Below, one piece after another: positions 10,327 through 62,807 of a stretch of 64,000 bases of DNA; the stretch's first letter is position 1; each line of letters begins with the position of its first letter. Both the position numbers and the translations under genes were made by a program. The stretch comes from Fistulifera solaris (Eukaryota > Bacillariophyta > Bacillariophyceae > Naviculales > Stauroneidaceae): positions 434,001-498,000 of the forward strand of contig AP026141.1 of NCBI GenBank assembly GCA_030295235.1. The letters run 5' to 3'. The notes under the pieces were generated by a model that worked only from the letters and a program-made list of their open reading frames with translations, did no database searches and was not told the origin of the DNA.

Positions 10327-12854
10327 CTACTGCTCTGGGTATTGCTCATCATCCAAATTGAAGTCTGGCAAGATGGGGCAGTTCTCTAAATGTAGCGAAT
10401 GCATCTGGAAGCAACACAAGACCGACTCCGGCAATTCCTCCTCGGACACTCCTTCTATTATGAAGGCAAAGGCTATTGAAACCGATTTTGTGTGTCCTCT
10501 CACCACGCTTAAAATACCTTTTGCAATCGAAGAAGCAGTTATGATGACATCAACTTCGTATACTCCTTTTCGAGTGAGATCCCTATCGCGGAAGAAATAT
10601 TGCAAAGGAATGACCTTTCCCAGCAAGGCAGGTGACTTTCCTGGACCCACGGCTGCTTTGACAATCCATGGACCTTCAACAACTACGGGAAGCAATTTTA
10701 GGCGGGCATCACGGTATTCTTGATCACCGTTACAGAACCTGTCCCAAACACCCTGGAGCTTTTGCGGAAACATATCCAATGGCGGTATCGAAAAGTATGC
10801 AACCAGATTGCCGAAAGGTAGCATAAAGTTTACAAGAAAGGTGTCTTCGTCGGCCAATCGTCCACCAAGAACGCTCGGGTGGCGTGCAATATTATGTCTG
10901 GGATTATCTGTCATCCACATGTCAACTCCGCGACATGTCAGGGTGCTGGCCCCGACAAAACTTTTACTTTGTCGGTTAAATAATTTGCCCCACGCACATG
11001 AAAAATTTTCGTCTCAGGTTGGCTCCAGCATGAATGGCCGTCTTTCGAAGGGAATTTTGGCAGCGGTGACGATAGTCGCTCATCCTCGAAAGACACGAAT
11101 GGATGAAGCGGACTTGCTTCTTCGCCGTCAGACTCTTCGCAATCATCATCGATAGAGATTTCACGTCTTCTGACCTCAGTATTCTTAATTGTGACCTGGG
11201 GAGTGCCGTCAGCACTACCTCGCTGTTCCTTCACAACGGGAGGTTGACGCCGTGACGGAGCCAATTCGCTGCTCTTCCCCATAACTATCGATCCAAAGCA
11301 GGCAGCACCAGCCCAGGATAAGAATAGTAGATCGAGTCGTATCGTAACAACAGGAATAAATTGCCCAAGAACACGACCTGTTAATGGGAGAACAGCTGTC
11401 GCAAGAAATAGCATTGATTGAGAAGGAAAAGGAATCAAAGCTTTATCGCCCCAAAGGTAACCCAAGGAGAGCACTCGAGCGGCAAACTCATCGACTGCTG
11501 ATTGCTTTGTAGCACACGAGTGTAACCATTCCTTGACGAAACGGTCCGTAGATATTGTACTATGAAGAGCGATTGCTGTCTTTTTCGTCAAAATTGATAG
11601 ACCATCATGCCCCTCTAACAGGCGCACGGAGAGTGGAGCAACATTTGCCTGTGAAGGCGACGAAGCCGACGATAGGCACAGAAATGATTTCAATGCGCTG
11701 GTATTGACGGTTTTAGCATCCACAACGACACTTCGAAGCAAGCTGTCAACAACGGAAAGCGTCGCTTTCAGTTGTTCCGCACTTGGACGAGTCGACAGTC
11801 GGGATATTTGATGAATCATTCCTCTACGCGAATCGCCCATTTGAAAGTCGATATTGTCCACCAGCTTTTGAAAGTCGTCAGCTGTTCGAAGAATAGACCA
11901 TTGTTCTGCTACTTGTCGTCGCTGTAACAAAAGCACTCGAATCTCGTAAGCAATCTCAAAGCGAAGACTTCGCGCTAGTCGGACCACGCGATACTGCGTG
12001 ACGCGAGTAATCACAATTTTGGAGGGGTTGCTGTCTGCTTTGGAAGACCTCGACGCATGGCGCTTCTGCATCCCAGTTGAACCGCTATCTCGGGTCGTCA
12101 CGGTCGTCACGGTCGTCACGTCAATCTGTTCAGACTCTGTTTCATTCACATGACTGGTCGTTAATATTAAATTTTCAACAGGAGACTTGGTCTTTGTGTC
12201 TTCTTCTTCAAAGGTGCAAGATTCTAAAACACGAACACCCAACATGTCCTCATTCTCCGAAATGGACTCATCAATCCTGGGTGTTAGCAAGGGTGATGGT
12301 AATTCGTCCTTCCACCACGGGCTTACAATCGGACCTGACCTAGGAGATGCTAACGTGGTTAAATGAGTGACGTTCCTAGTAGCAGCCCACTGCAAAGCGA
12401 CAACCCACATCTGGGCCTCTTCCAGAGTCGCTACTGCACACAAGAAATCACGCTGCTCATGCTGAACTGGATCGGGCGAACATTGTAACGTTTCTGTATC
12501 AGACGACAGCAGCCTTTGCCCACGAAACATAAAACCATAGGTACTGGTCGGCAATCCGACATGCATATCACGGAAAGTAGTCGCATCTAGAATTCGCGCT
12601 TGGAATAGAATGAGTGTGTACCTAGGAACACGACATCCCGAACCATTTTCTTCGTAATACCGAACCAACCCATTATCCCAAACTTCCAGATAGCGCGGCC
12701 TCCACACGCGGCGAATTTTCCCTCTCACGTGTGCTCGACCAGAGTGACGAATTTGGGGTTCTGTCGGAAACGGAGAATGTCGATCAAGTGAAACGCGCCG
12801 TGCATTGCTGTTCACCTGCGAACCGTCCTGCGGTGACCTAGCATTGGATTTCAT
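10327..12854 (-). CDS. PH/PX-like/EDR2 C-terminal (DUF1336) lipid-binding protein (frame change in a G4 run)
   Basis: Likely membrane-associated lipid-binding protein of about 840 residues. The N-terminus has a PH domain (about 35-175: AHVRGKIRRVWRPRYLEVWD, VRYYEE). The middle has a PX-like domain (about 285-420: YEIRVLL, QWSILRTADDFQKLV, LKSFLCL), then a hydrophobic stretch (FIPVVTIRLDLLFLSWAG). The C-terminus is an EDR2_C/DUF1336 domain starting VRGANYLTDKVKV and running through PRHNIARHPSVLGG and FLVNFMLPFGNL. The frame changes at the minus-strand G4 run (10950-10953); with five G the protein reads LSGASTLTCRGVDMW without a break. Plant EDR2 combines PH, START and DUF1336; here a PX-like region occupies the middle. 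No introns are seen. Plant relatives bind phosphatidylinositol 4-phosphate; the ligand here is not known. Confidence 0.8.
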
Positions 12855-13455: not shown

Positions 13456-16400
13456 CTATCGACAACTATTCGCGACAAGATACTTGTTGACAAGCTTTGC
13501 ATGAGGGGTGTTCTTAAAAGCTTGGATCAGAGTAGTGTCTTCAGCTTCTGTATAGACCAAGGGCCAATATCCACCGCAACCTGTCACCACCGAGCGAAAT
13601 GAGATGCTCGTGAACCTCTCCGGCGTACCGACATTTATAAGTTGCGAACATGATAGACGGTTGACAAGTCCAAGCGTTTCTTTCAGATTTGGAGGAGGAA
13701 GATACATCTCATCTCCAGAGGATTTTGCGAGGTGCTCCATTTTCGTTATAATTTCTTCCAAGTCGAATCCTTTGCTCTTGATACCCGTATTTTTTCTTAA
13801 GACAGCTAGGGATATTAGAAGCAGAGCTTCAAATGGTGCGCACTGAACAATGCCTTTGAACTCTGCGGAACTCGTAGTTTTTTGAACGGCGGCTACCACA
13901 TCTTTGACCATGACCACTGGATTACCAGTACTCTTTTCTTCTCGATCCAAAACGATTTCCGCCGCCGTCTGACAAATATGAAATGCTTTTCGGATATCTC
14001 CGGATGCCATCGATGTCTTTTTAGAAGCAAATAAAACCGCATCGTCCTGAAATACTTTGTAAAGGGCGATGCCTGTGAAATTTTGGCCGACAAAATTGCG
14101 ACCGTCTGCGTCACGTCGTAGGATTGAAAGGGCAAATGGTTTTTGCCGATACGAGATTGTATGCGATGGTGGAGCCTGTCTAACAAGTCCAATGTATTGG
14201 AAATGCCAATAACAACAAGATTCAAAGGCGCGCCAACATTTCGTGATGTCGCAGGCCAATTGAAAAAGTCGTATAGAACCTCCTCCCTCGGCGTAACAAG
14301 GTAGTCAATTTCATCTAGAAGAAGGACAATGACACGTGGTTCTTGCGACTCGGGATTTGCCTTTTCAAAATATTCCGCAAGCTGCTTGCGGGCTGATTCG
14401 GCCGTGTGTCTTTTGCCGTCCCTGCATATCTGTTCCAGGAACCTAGTGTACGCTTCATTGGGATTCCGCATCTCCATACCATTCAGCGATACAAATTCGA
14501 ACGACGATATCAGTCCTTCTTTTTGATCTTGTTTCAAATCACCGATAGCTGCCCGAATGCAGGAAGTTTTTCCCACACCAGGAGGACCCGCCACAAAATA
14601 CGAGGCTCTGAAGTTGTCTTGATTTTGACCAATAATAGAGTTTCGTAAAAGGACTTGATAATATTTTGCTCGCTCTGTCTCCCAATTAAGGCCGTGCTGC
14701 GCTCAAAACCTTCTATCGACGCGTCCGTAAGCGAAAGCTTTTTTATGACACTTCGAAACGATTCTTTCCAATCTCCATTTGTATTGGATGGCAACAGCGA
14801 GCTGCTTTGCATCTGATTTTCATTTGATGTAGTGGAAAGAAAATTTAACTCCTTGGAATATTTGGAGTGAATTCTAGCTCTCCCAATCCGACCGCTGAGG
14901 TCACCTATTGGAATTAGACTGCGACGACGAGGGGACCAGAAGCGGCGACAATGGAACTGAATTACTGGCATTCCGAACAGGTACTTGGCCTCTGAAACCT
15001 TCGCTGTACTCACCAGCTCAACAGGAGCTAGTATATTGCAAGGAGAAATCTCATCGTAATGGTCGCTTTCGAGTACTTCTTCTACCGCATTCCACGTCGG
15101 ATCCCTCTCAGTGTCAATTCCCTTTAATTCCGATGCACGGTACAACCACCTTATTTCGAATACGATCTCATATTTCATATTATCTGCCAAAGATCTTCTC
15201 TTGATAATTGCGACAAGCTCAGCGACGGCCCATTTGATTTCGTCCGCGAGCGGAAAGTTCCTTGACGAATTTGGTTGTTCGATGTTGGTTCCAAACGACG
15301 TTCTCCCAGAACCGAAACCGTGTCTAACGATGAAGACATCACCAAGTCGAAGTTTCCAAACGGAATCTTCCGGAACGGAAAAAGCAGGGAGACTAGGACA
15401 GAAGACACCATAGCGAGGTCGTACGCAAGCCTCCTGGTAAAACTCACAGCTCGCCCCGTGGTCAACGTAGAACGCTGGGCCTAAAAGCCGGGCGTTGCTT
15501 TCAACGAAACGCACAGAAGACGATTCTGAAGCAGTTGTTTTCTCGTCGTCATAGGATATACTTCTCAAATGCATCATATGCGGTTGTATTATGCCGTGCA
15601 TTTTTGAGCTGTCATTCACAGCCTTTGTGACTTCGGCAAAGAGCTTTTGAATCGTCGTTTTGTCGTACTGATTGGACGCTTCAAGGCACCGCTTTAAAAG
15701 GGTGCATATTCTTTGGGACGTACTTTGATGCTTCTCGACCCGAGCTTCATAAATTCCCCCATAAACATTAATTGAAACAGGGAGATAGCTTTGCATCTCC
15801 ACATGAGACCATAGCGATTCTCTCTCACGTTGCTGTAACTTTGTGATACCGGTCATGAAAATATTAATTGGACCAATGAGTGCATCACATTTTACAACTT
15901 CCACCTGGCTCTTTTCTCCATCGGCATACTCGTAAACGACGCCTAGTCCACTGCCTTGGGCTGAAAAAGTAATATCTCTTCTCAAAAGCCAGCGGATTTC
16001 CACCATACAATTCTTCTCAAAATCACTCGAACCCCTTTCCAAGCATTGGAAAATAGATACGATTTGCGCCGCCCTCCACGGTACAGAATACGGGAAGTAC
16101 GAACTCGTTGTGATATTACTGCTGTGCACAGCCACAATGTCGCCAACACAGCCGACCCAAACCCGATCTTTTCGATCGGCTTCTGGAAAGAGAACATCAG
16201 AAAGTGCATACCTGTCCCACGACGGAGTAAGAACGCAATTAAAAAAAGAAACGGCGATCTAGATTTGTGGTTTCCTGAGAGCATAAGCGCGTTTCTGTAT
16301 GAACGCCTTCGTTGCCAATTCTCCGTAGTCGCTTAGTGGACGACCGCGGGCAAGCTTCATTATCCAGAAAAGGAGCTTGAAGAGCACACAGCAACTCCTT

Positions 16401-18892
16401 CCGTTCCTTTATGATTGGAGACAGCTTTATAGCTTTTAGCGTCATTGATTGAAACCAACTCTTGGGACTCGCTTCGGCGGTGAAGAGAGGTTGAAATTGA
16501 CTGAAATGGTGTAAAAACAGGTATCTGCAGCGAAATTCTACCGCCAAGGCACTTTCATTGAGTCGACCCGGAACTTTTTGAACGTGATTTGCGATGAATA
16601 GGTCAACTGTGCCTAAAATCCTAGAAGCTTTCACGTCCCTTTCGAAAACGTCAGTTTGAAAAATTTCTGGGACAGACCCTGCTGTCGGCGGCATCCAGCT
16701 GATTGTATTTGATGGCATTTCACACCGCCGGTTGAACATGCATAACTCTACTAACGGTTCATTTGACCCTGGACTCTGTTTTGTAGTTTCCCTATAGATA
16801 CAAGTAACTTGACCAACCCGCCAGGGAGCAACAAACGGGTACCATGGATTCGTCGTCTCGCGAGACCTTGGAGGATTGGCTGTATCCCAAGCAACACAAA
16901 CAAAATCACCTATCTTCACCTTCCATGAATGAGTGTGAAAAGAACCCTTGTTTGCCGTTGTCCGTGATACATTTCGTCGTGGAACGAGAGGAACAAGAAC
17001 AGATGAGAGGTAGTCCACATACTTTCCTTTCGTGGGTATCTCTTTATAGATTGTTCGACAAGTGTCATCAGTAAATGCTTCAACATTCATGAGTTCCAAT
17101 GGCCATCGCGTGGAAACTTCATTTTCGCCTGTCTCGGAATACTTGGTGTTACTGCTAAACAGCCCACTCTCTAGATCGCCGCTTAATCCTAGACGCCGCT
17201 TTATAGCATCCAAATATCGCAATTGCAAACCAGGATCCTTTCCAGGGTGCGCCTTTTCGCATAAAAGTCCACGACTTAGCGGCCCCGCAACTCTTCCTTT
17301 GAAGGAAGTCCAGTCACTAATGTCGTCCAGAGAAGTGGCAATTATTTTACTTTGGTAGAAATGCCGACAAATATGAGGAACTTGGGGACTTTTTGTTTTG
17401 TCAACGAAATCATTCAACCATTTCAATGAGGGTTTGGGATTACTTGTAATTTCGATATTCCCGAGCACTTTTTCGACAGGTATAGAACTCACAAACTCAT
17501 CAACTTCAATAAGCATCTTGGCTGCATGCTTGTTCTCCAGTAGGCCTTTCTTTTCATTGTCTGATAGGTGCAAGTCTTCGAGGAGGTCTATATCCGTAAG
17601 GCGGTACAGGTAGCGAAACTCAACGAAGACCTGACTTGAGGGTGAGTTTTCTTTTCGATAAATAGCAAGAACTTGGGCGGCAGCCCATGACAAAGTAAAG
17701 GGCATCCAAGGATTCTTCACTCGTTTGGGAGGAACTTCAGCAATCGTAGATATTGCTACGACGTCTCCGACATGAAATGTAAGCTTTCCAGATAGTCGAC
17801 CTCGAATGGACGAGTCATAATTCTCCTTACACAAACTCAACTTGACCGATTCGAAAAAGTAAAGTTCAGCCGCACTCGTGCCTTTTTTACCCTTGCGACG
17901 AATAGCATACAACGGTTCTTTTGGGAAGAGCTGTTCCACTTTAGCAAGCATGTCAGGTTCGGCAGTGGAAGCGGATGTCGACGTAGTCCGTGTAGCCTCA
18001 TCGACAGAGATTTCATCGAGTTCAACGCGCGAGTTTTGCTTTTTTGAAGGGCGCCCTGGCTTAGAAACTACAGGCTTGCGCTTGTTACTAGCTTTTGTTG
18101 TGATAGAGGGTTTCGGCTTGAGTGTATTCTCCGATTTAGTCGCCACATCTTTCTCAGGAACTCGTGCGTTACATCGGTGTCGCGAGGGTGACGAATTTTC
18201 CGAAAAGTGCCCCTCTTTTGCAATGGGAAAATGTGCTCTTTGTACAGTCTTTGCAAAGTTAGACTTGATTGTTGCTGGTTGTCGCTGCTCCATGCTCTTA
18301 ATAAGGAAAGAGGCAACTCGCCGTCGTCGCGAACATAATGATCTAGCCCACGACGCTCAAAAGACTTCATCGGATCGAGGAAACCAAGAGGGCAGTAAAA
18401 AATTGTATATGTGCCAGGAACTTGCATTTCTGGCGGAATTTGGTTCCGATCTCTGAAAAAATCGGGCCTTTTGAGTTCCACCACAGCTGGGAGCAAGCGT
18501 TCGATAGGAAAGGTTTCTTCGACTTCCGTCTCGACTATGCTGTGTTTAGGTCTGCATAGTTCATTAATGACGCTCTTTGATTCCTTAGTCGCGTGCTTGT
18601 CACAGTATGCACTTGATACGAAAGGGAAGCATCTGACTGTGACGTCGTAATTTTTGGTCGAGTTTACCTTCGTCATAGTCAATTGAATCACTTGCCCTAT
18701 TGTCCACTTCTCATTCCGAAATGGGGCCAGCCTGAGCTTTCCCTTCTTCTCAGATCTATAAGCATAAAAATCTCCAAGAAAAACGCGTTGACAGAAATCC
18801 CCGTGGTTAATTTCAAGGCCACCGAAAGCAACACATTTGTTCGAGCGGTCTATTTGTTCTGTCAGTGCGATAACCTGAAATTGGGATACCAT
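13456..18892 (-). CDS. Giant ORC1/CDC6-like AAA+ ATPase with five tandem BAH-like modules (four frame changes at runs)
   Basis: About 1,810 residues when the frames are read through. The C-terminal third is an ORC1/CDC6 ATPase: IGRQSEQ, Walker A AGPPGVGKTS, Walker B VIVLLLDEID, sensor 1 VIGISNT, Arg-finger segment RIQSRIGKNHLPF, sensor 2 SGDIRKAFHIC, then a winged-helix-like end. Upstream are five BAH-like modules, each with a GD(V/F) entry, a W..(A/G)Q(V/I) core, an FRYLYR-type strand and a late RCRY/HCRRF-type strand: about residues 30-185 (GDFYAY, WTIGQV), 365-530 (GDVVAI), 665-810 (GDFVCVAW), 910-1060 (GDIVAV) and 1180-1335 (GDVFIV). A basic linker (KPGRPSKKQ) separates the first two. The frame changes by one base near 18216-18219, 16241-16247, 14623-14626 and 14055-14057, all run-associated. 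Known ORC1 has one BAH domain, which reads histone methylation in animals. Role inferred: chromatin-directed origin licensing or a divergent paralogue. Confidence 0.82.
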
Positions 18893-60812: not shown

Positions 60813-62807
60813 TTACTTTTTGAGAATCAAAGCCCTGTACTCCTTAATAGCTCGTCCCCATATTTCATAGCCTTTCTTGTTCGGATGAACGCCATCCGCG
60901 TACAAATCGGCCTTCACCGTCCCGTCCGAGTTCAGGAACAAGTTTGTTGCTTCAAAGAATGCGACGGCAGTTCCCGTCGACTCAGCAAAGCATTTGAGCT
61001 TTGCATTGATAAGAGGAATAACATCAAAGCCTGTATCCATGCGAGGAAGGATTGAATTGATGACAATTCTTGCTTTTGGTTGTCGGCTCAAAATTTCTTT
61101 TACTATAATGATGTTTGCCGCAACGATGGTATTAGGATTGCAGTCGTCGGTAATATCATTCGTCCCGATCAGTATCCATACAACTGAAACGTCGAGTTCG
61201 GAAGGGAGTTCCCCGTTTTGAATTCGATGTAGTAGATATGATGATTTGTCTGCTGCAATGCCCATTACTAGCGTGGATTCGATAGAAAATAGTTCGGCAA
61301 ATACGTCCGGTATATCCCTGTAGCGGAGCGATGGAGAACCCAGAACTGTTCCGAGCCACAGTTCTGTTATCGAATCCCCCATGAGCATAAGCTCCACCGT
61401 CGCATTGTTTGCTAGAAACGGAATCAGCTGGTCTTTATTGCGCTGGAATGTTTTAATCCATCGTGCATGCATTCTCGGGTCATCATTTGTCATGGGTAAA
61501 TAAGGATCTAGACACAGACACGAATCTTTCTGCCGGCAACGGTTTGTCGGCGCGGTCGAAACTTCATTCACCAACGCGTCGAAATAGCTGGCCTCTCCAC
61601 AAGTAGGTTGAGATGTAATATTCTCATCACCCGACATTTCTAGTTGAATCTCTTTGACTCGCTGAACGATCGCGTCGCCCCATATTTGGTAGCCCTCACT
61701 CGATAGGTGAATCGGATCTTGGTATAACGTAGCGTTACGATAGTCGGGACTGTGGTGCGCCACAAACAGACGGGTGGCGTCAAAAAATTCGAGGGCGCTG
61801 GATGCAAGCATTTCTGAGTAACATTCGAGATGCTTGTTCACTCGTAGTGCCTCTTGCCAATTTCGATCCTTTATGAGATGCGTATCACTGGCGTTTCGAC
61901 CGCTGCGAGGCAACAATGAATTCAGCACCACTTTTGTTCTGCTGGAGTCAACGGCGTTCAAAACAAATTCCGCGACTGCAATGTTCCCTGCCACCACAGC
62001 GTCGACATTACAATGATCACCACCCAAGTCGTTGGTCCCAATATTAATCCAGATAACTTTTGCCGTCGTCACCAGTTCACCCACTTTCATTCGGTACAAG
62101 AGATGCGGAATGCGGTCCCCGGCTATCCCTAACGCCAGACCACGCAGCGTCCCTTCTTGAAAATAGTGCCGATACACCGGAGGAACTCCATCGAACTCGC
62201 TATTTGGTCCACCCAAATCCGTTCCCAGCCAGTGTTCGGTCAAACTATCACCGAGCAAGAGAACGTCTAAGGCTTGTGAACTATTATAGCGTTGAGCCAT
62301 GTCCACGTTGCGCTGGAACGCCTTGTTCCATTTTTTGTAATATCGATAATCGTCCTCCTGTGGTCGAGAAATGGTCGGATTCTGGCAAAGACACTTTCGT
62401 TCTCGACCAATATCATCACACAAATCCATATTATCCAGTTTCTGGCGCAATTCTTGATAATACTGAAGACTGGGACAAGATCGAATCACTTCCGGGAGCG
62501 TAGGACCGACATAGATTGGATCCACAAAGGTAATAGGTGCGGGAAACGCCGTCGGTGCTTGAGAACGCTCTTCTGATTTGTCCACAGAAGACTCTTCCGT
62601 CGGCGAATCCTTCCGTTCCTCAAGAACTACATCTGATATGTTGTTATCTGGCAAATAGTAGATAATAATACCCGTGACGATGAAGAGAAAGAGGGAAAGG
62701 AGCGTATAAATCAGCGTGCTTCTCGACGAACGATCGCCTTTCGGTCCGGTCGAAAGCGTTTCCTCATCTTCCCTTACTGGAAGACTTTCATAGGCTCCTT
62801 TTGTCAT
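60813..62807 (-). CDS. Type II membrane protein with two tandem SGNH/GDSL hydrolase domains
   Basis: Predicted esterase or acetylhydrolase of the SGNH (GDSL) superfamily, PAF-AH beta/gamma-like branch. 664 residues, single exon, start Met 62807. A basic N-tail precedes a signal anchor (STLIYTLLSLFLFIVTGIII), then a Pro/Glu stalk and two domains of about 250 residues. Domain 1: GDSLTEHWLG (Ser), LALGIAGDRIPHLL (Gly), WINIGTNDLGGD (Asn) and DPIHLSSEGYQIWG (Asp/His). Domain 2: GDSITELWLG, VMGIAADKSSYLL, WILIGTNDITDD and DGVHPNKKGYEIWG. Each domain keeps all four catalytic blocks. The duplication is ancient. Cys pairs (CLC, CGEAS, CRQKDSCLC) suggest a lumenal or extracellular face. The substrate is unknown. 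Confidence 0.85.
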   Translation of the reverse strand: MTKGAYESLPVREDEETLSTGPKGDRSSRSTLIYTLLSLFLFIVTGIIIYYLPDNNISDVVLEERKDSPTEESSVDKSEERSQAPTAFPAPITFVDPIYVGPTLPEVIRSCPSLQYYQELRQKLDNMDLCDDIGRERKCLCQNPTISRPQEDDYRYYKKWNKAFQRNVDMAQRYNSSQALDVLLLGDSLTEHWLGTDLGGPNSEFDGVPPVYRHYFQEGTLRGLALGIAGDRIPHLLYRMKVGELVTTAKVIWINIGTNDLGGDHCNVDAVVAGNIAVAEFVLNAVDSSRTKVVLNSLLPRSGRNASDTHLIKDRNWQEALRVNKHLECYSEMLASSALEFFDATRLFVAHHSPDYRNATLYQDPIHLSSEGYQIWGDAIVQRVKEIQLEMSGDENITSQPTCGEASYFDALVNEVSTAPTNRCRQKDSCLCLDPYLPMTNDDPRMHARWIKTFQRNKDQLIPFLANNATVELMLMGDSITELWLGTVLGSPSLRYRDIPDVFAELFSIESTLVMGIAADKSSYLLHRIQNGELPSELDVSVVWILIGTNDITDDCNPNTIVAANIIIVKEILSRQPKARIVINSILPRMDTGFDVIPLINAKLKCFAESTGTAVAFFEATNLFLNSDGTVKADLYADGVHPNKKGYEIWGRAIKEYRALILKK

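Follow-up and report, generated by a model that had tools for sequence, protein, structure and literature searches.

BAH domains in ORC1 and the Fistulifera locus

How many BAH domains can an ORC1 protein carry? The single BAH domain of ORC1 is the textbook link from histone marks to replication licensing, and the ORC1 proteins of animals, plants, and yeast have one each. In a 64,000-nucleotide stretch of DNA from the diatom Fistulifera solaris (positions 434,001 to 498,000 of contig AP026141.1, here C38, of assembly GCA_030295235.1; hereafter the window), we have analyzed a minus-strand gene for an ORC1 protein whose N-terminus appears to hold five BAH-type modules, numbered M1 to M5 in reading order. 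Animal ORC1, represented by the mouse BAH structures 4dow and 4dov, has one N-terminal BAH where the window protein has five such modules. Plant ORC1b, built as BAH-PHD-AAA+, likewise differs in having one BAH together with a PHD finger; a Pfam scan of the window frames found no PHD. More than one BAH in a single protein is found in polybromo and in DNMT1/MET1, and the predicted model of M4 plus M5 aligns to both BAH domains of DNMT1 (743-1105), at a high root-mean-square deviation (rmsd) of 14-17 Å. However, these proteins have two BAH domains and, unlike the window ORC1, are not replication initiators. An extended chromatin-reading N-terminus is also seen in the ORC1 protein P0087, in which Pfam finds PWWP, BAH, and AAA; the M5 profile matches its BAH at 1e-11, but P0087 has one BAH, and a PWWP domain stands in place of the window's array. 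P0086 and P0089 are likewise ORC1 proteins with PWWP and BAH. Yeast Orc1 and Sir3 again have one BAH against the window's five. Their likeness to the window protein lies in the N-terminal BAH, which binds Sir1 or, according to the accessible part of PMC6602975, nucleosomes. The ORC evolution paper PMC7058166, in the part available, describes the BAH domain as patchily distributed in ORC1.

We propose that the window gene is the genuine ORC1 of F. solaris, present as a homeologous pair, with an N-terminus enlarged to five tandem BAH domains, of which M5 is ancestral and M1-M4 have diverged; we put the probability of this reading at about 0.78. A literature search, mostly without subscription papers, returned no description of a multi-BAH ORC1 among the matches listed. 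The proteins themselves are in public databases, where the architecture may be visible though undescribed. The features of the gene, with ratios of nonsynonymous to synonymous substitution rates (dN/dS) between homeologs where they apply, are as follows.

18892-13456, minus strand: whole ORC1 gene, ATG at 18892, stop at 13456, joined length 1,812 amino acids (aa)
18323..18811 (aa 28-190), minus strand: M1, putative divergent BAH domain (weak fold model and profiles)
17862..18322, minus strand: M1-M2 linker, about 154 aa (dN/dS 0.41)
17259..17861 (aa 345-545), minus strand: M2, putative BAH-type module (sequence evidence)
16344..16988 (aa 636-850), minus strand: M3, putative BAH-type module (sequence evidence)
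15575..16225 (aa 890-1106), minus strand: M4, putative BAH-type module without the canonical late CR.F strand (mostly profiles)
14843..15430 (aa 1155-1350), minus strand: M5, canonical ORC1-type BAH, adjoining the AAA+ part (sequence and fold)
13915..14710, minus strand: ORC1 AAA+ ATPase and lid (phmmer against PDB; Pfam AAA and Cdc6-ORC lid)
14588-14562, minus strand: Walker A, GPPGVGKTS, intact
14324-14304, minus strand: Walker B, LLLDEID, intact
14004-13981, minus strand: lid motif, SGDIRKAF, intact
13459..13914, minus strand: C-terminal region at the place of the ORC1 winged helix, assigned by position (dN/dS 0.11)

Gene integrity and ORC1 identity

On C38 the gene span is divided among five overlapping open reading frames (ORFs) in three frames, and a single open frame is absent. 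F. solaris is reported, in the accessible part of PMC5935921, to be allopolyploid with 42 homoeologous chromosome pairs, and contig C39 of the same assembly carries a homeologous copy at an almost identical location, colinear with the window gene and 88.8% identical to it in DNA over the aligned gene region (85.6% in protein). Alignment to C39 places the frame breaks at about 18209, 16247, 14651, and 14064 of the window, each a one-base indel at or beside a homopolymer. The C39 copy is uninterrupted at these four sites and has three breaks of its own at others. P0001, an NCBI F. solaris protein that is 100% identical over 90% of the query, reads through all four; it probably comes from another assembly than the window's, and its contig has 704,126 bases against 706,851 for C38. 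The JGI protein P0002 spans the same sites in a single 1,815-aa ORF, 82% identical, and P0003, the NCBI model of the homeolog, likewise reads across them. Because the C39 copy and these three proteins read through the four breaks, we take them for assembly errors. Introns were considered and rejected: the frames would have to switch over a distance of only a few codons, and C39 runs colinear with the window gene, interrupted by gaps of one base. On the sequence evidence, then, 18892-13456 is one gene of 1,812 codons with no need of an intron. P0001 and P0003 begin at inner methionines, so M1 is wholly or partly lost from both public models.

That the span instead comprises more than one gene, or a pseudogene in decay, is extremely improbable. 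The four frame breaks on C38 and the three in the homeolog would suit such a reading, but the two copies are broken at different sites, the three proteins read through, overall dN/dS is 0.25, and, as a control, 25 other window ORFs aligned to C39 carry 31 indels that break the frame and 19 that keep it over 22,963 covered bases, a rough rate, as these are 25 of the 27 other ORFs of at least 230 aa, of which some overlap and some are perhaps not genes. Across the 54,344 window bases aligned to C39 there are 168 one-base indels, so other genes of the assembly may look broken too.

The best PDB match of the AAA+ part in phmmer is ORC1 (5uj7, E 2e-25), ahead of human CDC6 (7.7e-22) and ORC4 (7e-8). 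An earlier note on this DNA, made from its letters without database searches, had read the span as one gene for an ORC1/CDC6-like ATPase; the continuity and the ORC1 identity are both confirmed, as are its three AAA+ motifs, the coordinates of the span, and the length, given there as about 1,810 residues and 1,812 aa when joined. Searches of the assembly (51.7 Mb, 61 contigs) with the window's own AAA+ part gave C38, C39, and a weak match on C11; with carp ORC1 they gave C38/C39, a weak CDC6-like pair on C11/C12, and one place on C4. Apart from that C4 place, at E 0.02, these two queries found no ORC1 besides the homeolog, and the window gene and its homeolog are thus, as far as the search reaches, the cell's ORC1. 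The C11 gene has Pfam AAA and weak Cdc6-lid matches and is 79% identical to the C12 gene; judged by these matches, CDC6 is separate from the window gene. The earlier note had asked for a second, ordinary ORC1 and had considered the window gene a possible specialized paralogue beside it. The unusual length of the protein would fit such a paralogue, but the carp query led back to the same pair, and we regard this alternative as hardly less improbable than a split gene. The N-terminal BAH expected of an ORC1 is present as M5. At the other end, Pfam detects Cdc6_C in carp ORC1 but in neither the window protein nor the 11 relatives scanned; the region itself is conserved between homeologs.

Evidence for the five modules and their spread

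What is the evidence that the same module recurs? Within a set of 19 proteins, the profiles of M2, M3, M4, and M5, each built from close orthologues of the module, cross-match down to about 1e-15, while the M1 profile matches M1 only; the M3 profile reaches the M1 of P0005 with an E-value of 0.017. On an E-value scale set to 10,000 sequences, no reversed or shuffled decoy fell below E=10 (100 decoys in one run, 288 in another), and thus the recurrence exceeds chance. Profile-profile comparison links M1 to M2 at 8.9e-12 and to M5 at 8.2e-10, and hhalign gives 2e-20 for M4-M5, 9.3e-21 for M4-M3, and 5.7e-22 for M2-M5. These comparisons indicate that M2-M5 are mutual homologues. The earlier note had defined the repeat by four elements: a GD(V/F) entry, a W..(A/G)Q(V/I) core, an FRYLYR-type strand, and a late HCRRF/RCRY strand. 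The recurrence stands, but some modules keep the motif only loosely: M1 reads VRCFPF and lacks an RCRY-type strand, M4 is without the late CR.F strand, and M5 has WAVAEL in place of W..(A/G)Q.

The evidence that the modules are of BAH type, as the earlier note proposed, is graded. The predicted model of M5 matches solved BAH folds, including that of mouse ORC1. For M1, BAH proteins fill the first 38 of the 50 Foldseek rows listed (best probability 1.00), and this low-confidence model suggests that M1, too, has a BAH fold. Fold evidence for M4 consists solely of the two-domain DNMT1 alignments described above. Pfam BAH is found in 6 of 12 orthologous fragments of M2 (best 1.7e-3), in 4 of 10 of M3 (best 2.7e-4), and in 1 of 9 of M4 (9.7e-6). 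In profile searches of PDB, M2 reaches a polybromo BAH at E 0.1, behind an unrelated row at 0.039, and the first match of M3 is human ORC1 at E 0.23. The M3 profile also matches the BAH region of carp ORC1, and the diatom module profiles match the BAH domain that Pfam defines in carp ORC1, P0087, and P0120. We therefore regard M2 and M3 as probable BAH-type modules. Several whole orthologues pass the Pfam BAH cut-off, namely P0004 (44.1 bits), P0006 (48.8), P0007 (47.4), P0008 (45.6), and P0012 (49.3); P0002 and P0005 give no Pfam BAH match as whole proteins, and a phmmer search of PDB with the M2-M3 and M4-M5 frames found no BAH. A PF01426 family search of the genome came back empty and is uninformative, as it detected 0 of 14 controls either. 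Weak Pfam matches on M1 (S1CSD-TOTE-1 at 0.015, CFAP161 at 0.046) were set aside after the fold search, and we make no claim for an AT-hook-like stretch between M1 and M2, since the homeolog does not conserve it.

Multiple modules are frequent in diatom-type ORC1; the earlier note had suggested searching diatom proteomes for the layout. Three protein searches, one of them limited to the best 120 of 187 and two of them scoring solely the candidates that share most words, yielded at least 144 proteins, which we divided by name and rank into 82 ORC1s of diatom type and 62 others. Modules were counted at a threshold of 0.01, with split pieces joined into one. Among the matches listed, 58 of the 82 diatom-type proteins have two to six modules; the full tally is 0 modules in 1, 1 in 23, 2 in 11, 3 in 25, 4 in 9, 5 in 8, and 6 in 5. 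The other 62, again among the matches listed, have none (39) or one (23) and never more. The profiles are diatom-tuned and miss some BAH domains, so "at most one" outside diatoms is a statement about these profiles; P0047-P0049, for example, score zero, yet Pfam lists a BAH in them. A P-loop was located in 76 of the 82. Where at least 800 residues precede it, every protein (46/46) has two or more modules, and where fewer do, 24 of 30 have one module or none. Six modules occur in Cylindrotheca and Nitzschia inconspicua, five in Fistulifera and Thalassiosira exigua, four in Pseudo-nitzschia australis and Ditylum, three in Thalassiosira sp., two in Skeletonema potamos, and zero in Corethron (a 663-aa protein). 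In a quick tree without bootstrap (61 rows: 51 of the 82 diatom-type proteins and 10 of the 62 others), the 51 stand on one side of a branch and the 10 on the other, with a Shimodaira-Hasegawa-like approximate likelihood ratio (SH-aLRT) support of 100. The nearest rows to the five-module P0023 of T. exigua with long N-termini have three, and P0023 may reflect an independent expansion or two genes joined in one model. The six-module P0008 and P0009 of N. inconspicua are publicly named "cell division control protein 6", most likely a misnaming.

Selection, cage residues, and possible roles

The gene is under purifying selection: between homeologs, dN/dS is 0.07 for M1, 0.24 for M2, 0.34 for M3, 0.46 for M4, 0.20 for M5, and 0.11 for both the AAA+ part and the C-terminus. 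M1 has the lowest value of all segments, though P0001 and P0003 omit it in whole or in part; it has diverged most of all modules in sequence yet changes least between homeologs, a pattern that speaks for a specific role and not for decay.

The methyl-lysine cage of the BAH protein SHL comprises Tyr41, Trp63, and Tyr65, as given in the accessible part of PMC6013494, and the SHL RWYY strand aligns to the RW.Y of the M5 profile. At the Trp63 and Tyr65 positions, respectively, M5 is aromatic in 14/14 and 14/14 rows, M1 in 5/7 and 1/7, M2 in 10/12 and 7/12, M3 in 4/10 and 3/10, and M4 in 5/9 and 3/9 (rows counted out of the fragments at hand: M1 7/7, M2 12/13, M3 10/11, M4 9/10, M5 14/16). The window's own residues are C/P in M1, Y/Y in M2, M/N in M3, W/L in M4, and W/Y in M5. 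By these counts M5 resembles the reader module of ORC1 at its expected site, M2 falls in between and may keep part of a cage, and M1, M3, and M4 look diverged. A conserved aromatic before [AG]-[QE]-[VI] (52/52 rows) was dropped as a third cage residue, as SHL Tyr41 seems to fall one position later.

A number of observations weigh against five BAH domains with M5 as the ancestral reader. None of the window's modules reaches the Pfam cut-off for BAH: M5 alone has a match, at 7.1e-4 and 19.9 bits against a cut-off of 30.8, and M1-M4 have none. The M1 model is weak, with a predicted local distance difference test (pLDDT) value of 54 and a template-modelling score (TM-score) to mouse ORC1 BAH of 0.33/0.47, M2 and M3 are assigned by sequence alone, and M4 mostly by profiles. 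The counterpart of SHL Tyr41 in M5 cannot be aligned with confidence, and the window's M2 is aromatic at both tested positions, so M5 is not cleanly split from the rest. Finally, 24 of the 82 diatom-type proteins have one module or none; many of these are perhaps fragments, yet the source of the one-module P0050 labels that protein complete.

What might the added modules do? The earlier note had imagined a multivalent reader, and all five modules could be working histone readers, with ORC1 reading several marks or neighboring nucleosomes at once. Each module's dN/dS is below 0.5, arrays of two to six modules are kept in diatoms, and M2 has its Y/Y pair; but five equivalent readers do not emerge from the cage counts, in which aromatics are often lost from M1-M4 and always present in M5, nor from the C/P and M/N of the window's M1 and M3, and we consider this reading unlikely. 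M1-M4 may alternatively bind proteins such as origin recognition complex (ORC) partners, silencing factors, or remodellers, in the manner of yeast Orc1 BAH and Sir1, and not histones. Cage residues are frequently lost while selection persists, the M1 fold appears to be kept in the model, and the Orc1-Sir1 structures 1zbx and 1zhi are among the structural matches. Against this stands the lack of a known partner, and in yeast, the accessible part of PMC6602975 reports, the Orc1 BAH contacts the H4 tail, the nucleosome face, and the acidic patch; such multiple contacts mean that loss of the cage does not exclude nucleosome binding by other surfaces. Protein binding in place of histone binding is a tentative alternative, less probable than not but the strongest of those considered here.

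Returning to an enlarged ORC1 with an ancestral M5, we propose that internal duplication extended the N-terminus into five tandem BAH domains and that M5, beside the AAA+ part, is the ancestral ORC1 BAH. M5 would most likely bind the face of the nucleosome or a histone tail that carries a modification, and so place ORC on chromatin, while the diverged M1-M4 would most likely supply further contacts, to nucleosomes or to proteins, by which ORC is kept on chromatin or partners are brought in. More speculatively, and with considerable doubt, diatom ORC1 could act as a chromatin ruler: the BAH chain would dock on successive nucleosomes or silencing partners, with M5 reading a specific mark and M1-M4 serving as nucleosome clamps that mostly lack a cage, and nucleosome arrays would set origin choice in diatoms. 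Diatoms are a major algal group whose replication origins are little known, and diatom-type ORC1s with up to six modules could be used to test whether added BAH domains shift ORC binding sites; PMC13276009 reports editing of the F. solaris genome. The range from one to six modules is also a natural series in which to follow the duplication and divergence of a reader domain inside an essential gene.

A first look for histone methyltransferases by a SET-domain search gave 71 matches. In the downstream neighbor of ORC1 (10941-12854, minus strand, 638 aa), Pfam matches just the beginning of an EDR2 C-terminal domain, located at the extreme end of the protein (3.9e-4, below the cut-off), so an indel or intron perhaps interrupts this frame as well. 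At 60816-62807 (minus strand), the window encodes a 664-aa protein with two tandem GDSL-lipase matches.

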